From Meiothermus ruber DSM 1279 (lineage in GTDB: Bacteria > Deinococcota > Deinococci > Deinococcales > Thermaceae): DNA of 64,000 nucleotides. Positions 49,821 to 55,088 of this stretch are shown one piece after another (position 1 is the first letter of the stretch; each line of letters opens with the position of its first letter). The notes beneath the pieces were generated by a model, which ran no database searches, was not told where the DNA came from, and saw only the letters and a list, made by a program, of their open reading frames with translations. Made by a program: the position numbers and the translations under genes. The DNA lies in NCBI RefSeq assembly GCF_000024425.1, contig NC_013946.1, positions 2,976,001 to 3,040,000 on the forward strand, read 5' to 3'.

Positions 49821-52619
49821 TTAGAACTTCACTTCGTAGCTGATCTTGAAGCCCGAGCCGTTGCTGACGGTAGCGCCGCTGCCATCCGCCAGGGTGGCCG
49901 AGGCCGCCGCCATGGTCAGGTTGCCGTACTTCCACTCGAGGTACAGGCCGGTCACGCTACCCGAGTTGGTGCCGAAGTCGGTGGTGAGGTTCCAGGGGAA
50001 CTGTACTTCGCCGGGGTAGTTGAAGACACGGTCGGTGGTGAGGCTCAGGGGGAAGTTGCCGAAGCCGCGGGCCGGCGCACCGCCCACAGGGTTGGGCGAT
50101 ACCACGTTGGTCGCGCTGTAGCGGGCATAGCCCACCTTGAAGACGCTGCCGGTGGCCAGGAACTCGTTGAGGTTCAGGCCCACCCGCCAGTACTGCTCGC
50201 TCGAGGAGTTGCTACCTGGTGCGGTCTCGGTGATGGACTGCTGCACGAAGGCACCCTCGAGGCTGGGCTTGAGGAAGATCCCAAGCTGGTCGGTGGTTAC
50301 ACCGATCCCATACTTGAGAGCGTTGGTAGACCGGTTGCCCGGCGCCGGCGCAGCAGCCGAGAAGCTGTGGTAGCGCAGGATGGGGTTGAACGAGATGAAG
50401 CCCAGCTTGGCGTTGTAACCCACGCTGGCGAGCACATCATTACCGGCGTTGGGGCCCGCGAAGGACTGGTACCACAGGTTGATGTCCAGGTTGGGGATCA
50501 GAGCGTTGCTGGCACGACCGTTGTGGATCAGCTTGACCCCGAAGCCACTCGACCAGCGGGCATCCTGGTTGTTGTAGAGGTAGTAGTTGTAGTTGCCGTT
50601 CAGGCCCGACTGGCCGCCGGTGGCACCGGAGACCTGCGCACCGTTCACGTTGGTGTTGTTGAAGAAGGGGTTCAGGCTGAAACCAGCGAACAGCGGGATG
50701 GTAGCACCCACGCTGAAGGTATCGGCGGTCTGGGCGCCGGTGGCGAAGTCGGCGGAGTTGTCGTAGAAGCCGCGCACCTCGATGCCGCCCAGGATAGGCA
50801 GGGTCAGCTTACCGTCGAGGCCGAACCCACGGTTGTTGGCGCCGTAGGGGGCCTCGCCGTTGCCGCCCAGCCCGAAGTAGTAGTAGCTGGAGGCCGAGGA
50901 CAGGCCGGCCTGACCGTTGTTGTACTGCGGGTCAATGGCGCGGTAGTTGGCATTCAGTTCGATGATGCCCAGCTTCACCCCCAGCTTGGTGTAGAAGGCC
51001 TGGTCGGTTACGAGCTGGTTGGAGAAGTCAACGGGGGTACCGAAGGGCGTGGAGGCCACAAAAGCGCCTTCCAGGTTCACAAGCCCAAAGAGGCTGCCCT
51101 TGTAGTCCACCCCAAAAGCCGAGCGGTTGCCGCGGTTCTCGGCGTAGCTGAGACCGGTGGTGATACCCAGCAGGTTGAGCTCGGCCCGCAGACCACCGTA
51201 GGTGGGGTCGGTTCCCCATACGCGGCTTGCGGCTGGAATTGCAGTGTCGTCAATCCCCTCACCCGCCACCACGGTGAACTTCGGAGACAGCGGGAAGGCT
51301 TTGGCATCCAGGGTAGCCACAAAGCCACGGGTGGTGATCAAATCCCCCACGGTGCTGTTGTTGAAGAGGTAGGGGTTGAAGCTGAAGGTGCTGTCGTCGT
51401 TGTTGTAGGTAACGCTGAAGGCCTGGCCGGAGAGGCTGCCCTTGACGCTGGCGCTGTTAAGGGCCAGGGTACGGGCCACGCCGGAGTTGACCAGGTCGGC
51501 GCTCAGGCCCAGGCTCACCTCGCTGATGGCGCCGCCGGTGGGCTTGAGGCCAAAGTTCAGGCTGGCCCCGCCGTAGGTGTAGGTCTGGTTGAAGTCGCCG
51601 CGGCGGAAGGCGTTGCGGATGCGGTTGCCCGACACATCATCCGTACCGGTGCCAGAGCTCAGGGCATTGCCGGGGAAGAGGCGGTCGAGGTCAAAGTCCC
51701 CGCCGGTGTTGGTGGAGTAGCCATAGGTGGCCGAGAGCGAGCCGGTCAGGGTCGGGCGGGTGGCTTCCACCGCCGCCAGGCGCTGATCCAGGGCCCCCAC
51801 GCGGGTATCCAGGGCGCTCACCCGATCGGACAGGCGCACCAGGTCGCTGCGCAGGGCGGTGGCGAACTCCTGGATGGCGCTCACGTCTTCGCGGTTGGCG
51901 AAGCTTTCGAAGTCCACGTCGCCCAGTTGCTTCTCGAGGGCGGTCACCCGGTCTTGCAGGCTGAGCACATCCTGGTTCAGAAGCACGGCCAGCTCGTTGA
52001 GGGCGCGGATGCTGTCGGCGTCGGCTTCCACCTGGGTCTTGAGGGCGGCCACATCACCTTCGATGCCATCAAGACGCTCGGCCAGCACCTGGGCCTGGGC
52101 CAGGGCGGTGTCGGCGGCCACGCTGGCGGCTTCTACGCGGTCGGCCAGGTCGGCCAGGGCGGCCTCATCCATGCCCGGGGCCGGGGCGGGCGCAGCCTTC
52201 AGGGCTTCGATGGCGGCCTCGAGGCGGGCGATGTCGTCCTTGGAAGCGGCGTTGTCTTCCAGGGCCGATACGCGCACGCCCAGGGCGGCCAGCTCGGCGG
52301 CCAGCTCCTGCACCGCGTTGCGGATGGCGGTCATGTCTTCCGCGTTCATGCCGCTGCCGTCGGCCTTCACGCACTCGCCGCCCTGCTGGATCTCGTTCAG
52401 CAAGCGCTGGAAGATCAGGGCGGCCTGGTAGCGGGTCAGGTTGGTGTTACCACGGAAGGTTCCATCGGGGAAGCCCGTGATAAGACCGCAGGCCGCGATG
52501 CGCTCAACGGCTTCCTTGGCCCAGTGCCCGGCGGGTACGTCGGAGAACTGCGCCTGGCCGAAGCCTAGACCGAGCACGGTCAGCAACCCAGCCAAGTAAA
52601 CTACTAGCTTCTTCTTCAT
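49821..52619 (-). CDS. slpA: S-layer/outer-membrane protein with SLH domain (SlpA-like)
   Basis: A 932-residue envelope protein. It has a signal peptide (LVVYLAGLLTVLGLGFGQAQ), one SLH domain (about 25-75, FSDVPAGHWAKEAVERIAAC) that binds pyruvylated cell-wall polymer, a coiled-coil region (about 95-290, many A/L/D heptads), then a long beta-rich part (about 295-932) with alternating strands and a terminal Phe (ISYEVKF), as in outer-membrane barrels. The family tethers the outer envelope to the wall in Thermus and Deinococcus. ATG 52619 has GAGGAGG. The promoter is strong with a long leader, and transcription ends at the terminator next to vapC. Confidence 0.93.
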   Translation of the reverse strand: MKKKLVVYLAGLLTVLGLGFGQAQFSDVPAGHWAKEAVERIAACGLITGFPDGTFRGNTNLTRYQAALIFQRLLNEIQQGGECVKADGSGMNAEDMTAIRNAVQELAAELAALGVRVSALEDNAASKDDIARLEAAIEALKAAPAPAPGMDEAALADLADRVEAASVAADTALAQAQVLAERLDGIEGDVAALKTQVEADADSIRALNELAVLLNQDVLSLQDRVTALEKQLGDVDFESFANREDVSAIQEFATALRSDLVRLSDRVSALDTRVGALDQRLAAVEATRPTLTGSLSATYGYSTNTGGDFDLDRLFPGNALSSGTGTDDVSGNRIRNAFRRGDFNQTYTYGGASLNFGLKPTGGAISEVSLGLSADLVNSGVARTLALNSASVKGSLSGQAFSVTYNNDDSTFSFNPYLFNNSTVGDLITTRGFVATLDAKAFPLSPKFTVVAGEGIDDTAIPAASRVWGTDPTYGGLRAELNLLGITTGLSYAENRGNRSAFGVDYKGSLFGLVNLEGAFVASTPFGTPVDFSNQLVTDQAFYTKLGVKLGIIELNANYRAIDPQYNNGQAGLSSASSYYYFGLGGNGEAPYGANNRGFGLDGKLTLPILGGIEVRGFYDNSADFATGAQTADTFSVGATIPLFAGFSLNPFFNNTNVNGAQVSGATGGQSGLNGNYNYYLYNNQDARWSSGFGVKLIHNGRASNALIPNLDINLWYQSFAGPNAGNDVLASVGYNAKLGFISFNPILRYHSFSAAAPAPGNRSTNALKYGIGVTTDQLGIFLKPSLEGAFVQQSITETAPGSNSSSEQYWRVGLNLNEFLATGSVFKVGYARYSATNVVSPNPVGGAPARGFGNFPLSLTTDRVFNYPGEVQFPWNLTTDFGTNSGSVTGLYLEWKYGNLTMAAASATLADGSGATVSNGSGFKISYEVKF

Positions 52620-52878: not shown

Positions 52879-52930
52879 GGGCTGGGGTTTATTAAGGCCC
52901 CAGGAAAGGAGGTTGGGTCTCAAAGTGAGG

Positions 52931-53120
52931 AGCGCAGGGGGTCGGATACCGACCTTACGAGGTGGCGGTCTCATGCCGAGATAAGCAGCCAACTGCGAAA
53001 GATCGAGTGGTTCCGCGGATGCCGCCAGGGGGCGAACCCCTCCCTCTCCGCTGGCCCAGCGGCCAGAGCAGCCCTGCGGGAAAGCCGGATGCGCGAGCGC
53101 CGGACAGCCAATGGGCAGGG
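52931..53120 (+). ncRNA. glmS ribozyme-like RNA in the glmS leader (divergent)
   Basis: In order: AGCGCAGG with the expected cleavage point between A52931 and G52932; a 6-bp hairpin GGTCGG-ATA-CCGACC (52940-52954); TTACGAGG (52955-52962), like the conserved TGACGAGG; a P3-like stem TGGCGG (52963-52968)/CCGCCA (53022-53027); and inside it ATCGAGTGG then TTCCGCGGATG, like the conserved ATCGAG...TTCGGCGG-TG. The GCG at 53015-53017 can pair with CGC at 52933-52935, as in the ribozyme's P2.2 pseudoknot. A 32-base insert with a TCTC/GAGA hairpin is extra. Glucosamine-6-phosphate would trigger cleavage and silence glmS. The 3' limit is uncertain. Confidence 0.7.
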
Positions 53121-53273
53121 TTCAGGTGGAGAAAGCAGCCTAAATTCATCACACCCACCGGCCTTATCCAGCCGGTAAGGGGTGGCCTTTGGGGTGTATG
53201 GCCCCAGGTTTGGTGCAAATAGCAGCGGCTTGAACGGACAGTTGGTCTATGGTTTAGGAAAAGAGGTAAAAAG

Positions 53274-55088
<1,815 letters not shown>

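Follow-up and report, generated by a model that had tools for sequence, protein, structure and literature searches.

A very probable glmS ribozyme, its core enlarged by two hairpins, upstream of glmS in Meiothermus ruber

The analyzed window comprises 64,000 nucleotides of the Meiothermus ruber genome, which was searched as a single contig of 3,097,457 bases. The window contains a glmS gene encoding glutamine--fructose-6-phosphate transaminase, and the protein matches TIGR01135 far above the cut-off of 418 bits (Table 1). The predicted RNA element extends from 52931 to 53123 on the + strand, and the glmS start follows 150 nt downstream. This arrangement agrees with the proposal of the earlier note that the RNA is located to regulate its own enzyme, and the GlmS start was found downstream of the leader in all examined loci of relatives. 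Neither a + strand promoter nor a terminator-like site was recognized in the leader region. The divergent neighbor (49821-52619, - strand) encodes a protein of 932 aa with a weak match, below the cut-off, to an iron uptake porin model, and the intergenic region common to both genes must hold the glmS promoter. At one relative's locus (L027), the ribozyme and glmS are separated by a gene of 129 aa (1692-2081) that belongs to the 23S rRNA-intervening-sequence protein family (PF05635, E 8e-28), and some 630 nt lie between the ribozyme core and the glmS start.

Table 1. Parts of the predicted ribozyme and the gene downstream of it (positions in the window)
Feature	Position	Strand	Remark
Cleavage-site strand A/GCGC-A	52931..52936	+	predicted cut A52931/G52932
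P2.2 5' strand CGC	52933-52935	+	pairs with GCG 53015-53017
P1 hairpin GGTCGG-ATA-CCGACC	52940..52954 (arms 52940-52945 / 52949-52954)	+	covariation
ACGAGG, active-site strand	52957..52962	+	ACG(A/C)GG in 34/34 homologs
P2.1 5' strand CGA	52958-52960	+	partner TCG 53003-53005
P2 5' strand TGGCGG	52963..52968	+	pairs with 53022-53027
Extra hairpin 1 (P2a) TCTC-ATGCC-GAGA	52969..52981	+	same hairpin in Thermus, Meiothermus, neighbors
Conserved single strands TAA and GAAAG	52982-52984 and 52997-53001 (range 52982..53001 spans P2b too)	+	flank P2b; putative function
Extra hairpin 2 (P2b) GCAG-CCAA-CTGC	52985..52996	+	exchange with CCGG/CCGG in Thermus
ATCGAG	53002..53007	+	TCG 53003-53005 is the P2.1 3' strand
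CCGCGGATG	53013..53021	+	GCG 53015-53017 is the P2.2 3' strand
P2 3' strand CCGCCA	53022..53027	+	P2 covariation (see text)
P3 hairpin GGGGG-C-GAACCC-CTCCC with loop L3	53028..53044	+	pairing versus shuffles
L3 strand GAACCC of pseudoknot P3.1	53034..53039	+	partner 53118-53123
P4 domain	53071..53116	+	outer stem GCCC 53071-53074 / GGGC 53113-53116
P4 inner stem CCGG / CCGG	53085-53088 / 53100-53103	+	purine-rich internal loop between the stems; GCGA (GNRA-type) tip
P3.1 3' strand GGGTTC, 3' boundary of the ribozyme	53118..53123	+	covaries with L3
glmS, gene proposed to be controlled	53274..55088	+	TIGR01135, 858.8 bits

The earlier note had read the leader as an ordered series of glmS ribozyme elements, and all motifs that it quoted were found on the + strand and in that order. 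The cleavage-site AGCGC begins at A52931, the P1-like hairpin GGTCGG/CCGACC is present and covaries, and the complementary CGC/GCG strands suggested to form a pseudoknot are those of P2.2. The stem TGGCGG/CCGCCA is also real, but the name P3 was not correct: according to the standard crystal-structure naming (PMC11602151) it is P2, and the same scheme assigns CGA/TCG to P2.1 and CGC/GCG to P2.2. The insert, described as 32 bases with a hairpin of its own, exists; it has a length of 33 nt (52969-53001) and forms not one but two hairpins, TCTC/GAGA and GCAG/CTGC, with TAA between them and GAAAG after them. The proposed start of the element was retained, whereas its 3' end was moved from 53120 to 53123, where P3.1 closes. 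A single place in the window has the ordered motif set together with the pairing stem, and none of 300 shuffles has it; even when pairing is not required, only about 3e-5 motif sets are expected per window.

An Rfam scan of the 431-base leader (cmscan) yielded no glmS match, neither at the gathering threshold nor at E <= 10, and the snoRNA-like matches in the scan at E <= 10 were rejected as chance. When RF00234 was searched against the whole genome with laxer filters, a check that the earlier note had suggested, the leader was the best match of the genome (window 52920-53072, model positions 1-167, 19.4 bits, E 0.03), though below the cut-off of 37 bits. Orthologous leaders with the insert reached 22-29 bits (up to 28.8); E-values within the same genus were 8.4e-5 (G009), 1.5e-4 (G015), and about 0.003 in another case. 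All tested insert-bearing leaders of the Thermaceae type stayed below the Rfam cut-off. In contrast, insert-free glmS leaders of the phylum cleared it with 40-49 bits. Because of this difference between the two forms, the most likely explanation for the shortfall is the insert combined with divergence. The cut-off is a threshold of model coverage, and not a biological feature that defines the class.

A model of the two-hairpin core (R1) was built from 24 insert-bearing relatives, excluding the M. ruber leader and its nearest kin. When the M. ruber genome was searched with R1, the leader was the only match, with 97.6 bits and E 3.3e-20. The model also detected the insert-free leader of G025 (E 4.5e-8), which is detected by RF00234 as well (E 6e-7). 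Matches at E <= 0.1 were obtained in 62 of 111 genomes of the phylum, the weakest of which may be due to chance.

Covariation was analyzed in 34 homologous leaders and in a second alignment of 25 sequences, and the paired elements listed in the earlier note turned out to be conserved and covarying in relatives. The four outer pairs of P1 were paired in 33-34 of the 34 leaders, with many double changes (GC/AT/TA/CG), and five of the six P2 pairs were paired in all 34; for both stems, 0 of 2000 shuffles matched the pairing. The 5' strand of P2 occurs as TGGCGG, TGGTGG, TGGAGG, TGACGG, TGAACG, TAGACG, and TAAGGA, each complemented over the five inner pairs, while the first pair, like that of P2a, is often unpaired. 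One compensatory change was observed in P2.1, from CGA/TCG to CGC/GCG in two leaders (L022 and L023, ACGCGG with AGCGAA), and in four of the 34 leaders the third pair is A/G. The P2.2 pairs are invariant in 34/34 and, because they never vary, say nothing about pairing. AGCGCA and GCGGATG (53015-53021) were both present in 34/34 leaders, a conservation that is partly by construction, as both served as search anchors. At the position of ATCGAG, all homologs have (T/G)CGA(A/G).

In the 3' part of the element, P3 was paired to 0.95 in distinct arms versus 0.84 after shuffling (21/5000), counted from an alignment that was gapped by hand, as MAFFT misplaces the gap in the Thermus P3. P3.1 occurs as GAACCC/GGGTTC, GAGCCC/GGGCTC, GGGCCC/GGGCCC, GAATCC/GGATTC, GGACCC/GGGTCC, and CGACCC/GGGTCG, and 0 of 5000 shuffles matched its pairing, in a register that was gapped by hand and set by eye and leans towards pairing. 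The outer and the inner stem of P4 covary, and its GNRA tip is found in most relatives but is shortened in several Thermus. In the 25-sequence alignment, 89.8% of the cells pair and the covariation score is 0.224; sliding the partners lowers these values to 27-50% and at most 0.080, respectively.

The folding energy gave no signal relative to shuffles (z -0.25). Such a signal can be missing for GC-rich, pseudoknotted RNA. Together with the score below the Rfam cut-off, this result would be in line with a GC-rich leader that resembles the ribozyme consensus merely by accident. The probability of such an accident is negligible in view of the shuffles devoid of the motif set and the conservation before glmS across the phylum, and the covariation refutes it.

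The leader shares with the RF00234 ribozymes of Bacillus and Thermoanaerobacter the cleavage-site strand, ACGAGG, AUCGAG, GCGGAUG, P1, P2, the P2.1/P2.2 double pseudoknot, the P3/P3.1 pseudoknot, a P4 with internal loop and GNRA-type tip, and the position before glmS. The conserved core nucleotides at the cut site and in the cofactor pocket (A/GCGC, ACGAGG, AUCGAR, GCGGAUG) are thus present along with the characteristic architecture and the covariation of P1 and P2, while a match to RF00234 at 37 bits is absent. The leader differs from the RF00234 form in having 33 nt with two hairpins, instead of 2-3 nt, between P2 and the 3' strand of P2.1, in an A/C combination that replaces the fourth P2.2 pair, in a divergent P3-P4 region, and in its score. 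From these sequence comparisons, we consider it highly likely that the leader is a glmS ribozyme, in which a cut driven by glucosamine-6-phosphate (GlcN6P) would lead to mRNA decay and the hairpins would brace the core.

In the proposed mechanism, GlmS makes GlcN6P, the abundance of which would be sensed by the leader. When plentiful, GlcN6P would bind to the preformed pocket of the P2.1/P2.2 double pseudoknot and act as a cofactor, and the RNA would be cleaved after A52931, leaving G52932 at the new 5' end of the downstream glmS mRNA. This mRNA would then be degraded, probably by RNase J, and its decay would lower GlmS synthesis. For the class, it has been described that GlcN6P binds as cofactor and that cleavage makes the 3' fragment a target of RNase J1 (PMC7125110). 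An RNase J homolog is encoded in the genome (550 bits, cut-off 400). The extra hairpins, which follow the 5' strand of P2 and precede the 3' strand of P2.1, would in these thermophiles most likely brace the core and leave the chemistry unchanged.

The fourth pair of P2.2 deserves separate consideration. It is a mismatch, A52936/C53014, in M. ruber and in the other Thermaceae-type insert-bearing relatives, and it can be A-U in insert-free forms. In one core construct, loss of the corresponding pair carried a cost of about 1000-fold, although natural ribozymes conserve this pair poorly (PMC7125110). This loss, together with a 33-nt insert within the core, could indicate an RNA that is derived from a glmS ribozyme and still binds GlcN6P but cuts inefficiently, and thus an ordinary riboswitch or a relic. 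We regard this as very improbable, since all 34 leaders, from several families, retain the residues around the cut, both strands of P2.1, and the three P2.2 pairs nearest the cleavage site, a conservation that would be required for strand cutting and not obviously for mere binding. Also, a riboswitch of this kind is not favored by the leader region, in which no terminator-like site was recognized.

The two-hairpin insert, correctly described as unlike the Firmicute forms, is not unique to M. ruber. It was found in named Thermus and Meiothermus species, in neighboring families, and in L037 from another family, and, judged by these leaders, it is general in Thermaceae. The insert-free relatives have 2-3 nt at this site, and no insert is present in the Deinococcota leaders L034, L035, and L036; families other than those named lack the insert or have a hairpin at another place in the core. 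In P2b, 98% of the cells are paired and two pairs show double changes, including an exchange of GCAG/CTGC and CCGG/CCGG. For P2a, TCTC/GAGA is exchanged with CCCC/GGGG (Thermus, Meiothermus, neighbors). As whole arms, P2a and P2b paired no better than shuffles (133/2000 and 488/2000, respectively), because few distinct arms exist. The flanking ATAA...AAAG is almost invariant (alignments A2 and A3).

The location of the insert between P2 and the strand lining the cofactor pocket, the conservation of the TAA and GAAAG single strands almost like the core, and the generality of the insert in the thermophilic Thermaceae would be in line with a ribozyme that has the same fold and cleavage but whose cofactor choice or temperature response is altered by the two hairpins. 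Nevertheless, we judge an altered response to be unlikely: the strands of the cofactor pocket are unchanged, insert-free forms precede glmS too, and the hairpin tips vary freely, one with a repeat of about 117 nt in a relative, which suits a structural role. A tentative and rather doubtful idea is that the two hairpins and the TAA/GAAAG strands together make up an additional module, which would dock onto the core and tune cofactor affinity or activity at high temperature. If so, the Thermaceae ribozyme would be a functionally distinct subclass and not a decorated copy.

Further length variation was observed among the relatives. In another family of the phylum (L031, L032, L033), the core has a hairpin elsewhere, with AUCGAA before it and CUGCGG after it, and P2a/P2b are absent. 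P1 is longer by roughly 55-75 nt in several Meiothermus (L006, L008, L010, L011, L014, L016); some species have this extension in common, and in G002, G003, and G006 it does not occur as a genomic repeat. In L014 (G016:C96:10530-10656, genus Meiothermus), P2b of the glmS ribozyme contains a copy of a MITE-like repeat of about 117 bp with the inverted ends TTATACCAAATCTGC / GCAGAGTTGGTATAA. The repeat occurs at least 40 times in G016 and 25 times in G006 (copies L071-L086); the M. ruber genome has fragments only, and no clear target-site duplication was found in 16 further copies. The two-hairpin insert itself does not derive from this repeat, as it is conserved across genera and unlike the repeat. 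A different insert of about 110 nt occupies the same P2b spot in L016 (G005:C294), and because the two inserts differ, two independent insertions have, by comparison of the leaders, hit P2b. It seems that P2b tolerates insertion, with the core staying intact.

The insert-free Deinococcota ribozymes (L034-L036) and those with the hairpin at the other site (L031-L033) have the same core elements and precede the same gene, and differ from M. ruber in lacking P2a/P2b. McCown, Roth and Breaker (RNA 2011) reportedly described Deinococcus-Thermus glmS ribozymes whose catalytic core has extra stems and whose core-supporting substructures are altered. These variants would resemble the M. ruber leader in having such stems in the same phylum. 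The two-hairpin leader is thus probably a known variant already described in 2011; none of the papers found in a literature search describes the Deinococcus-Thermus glmS ribozyme variants.

In summary, a wall-precursor gene of thermophilic Deinococcota is very probably under the control of a metabolite-driven ribozyme, which standard annotation overlooks because of the failure of all tested leaders of this type to reach the Rfam cut-off. The alignment of about 50 members provides a clean way to repair the Rfam model, and with the insert, nature itself supplies a test of the tolerance of a catalytic pseudoknot core.
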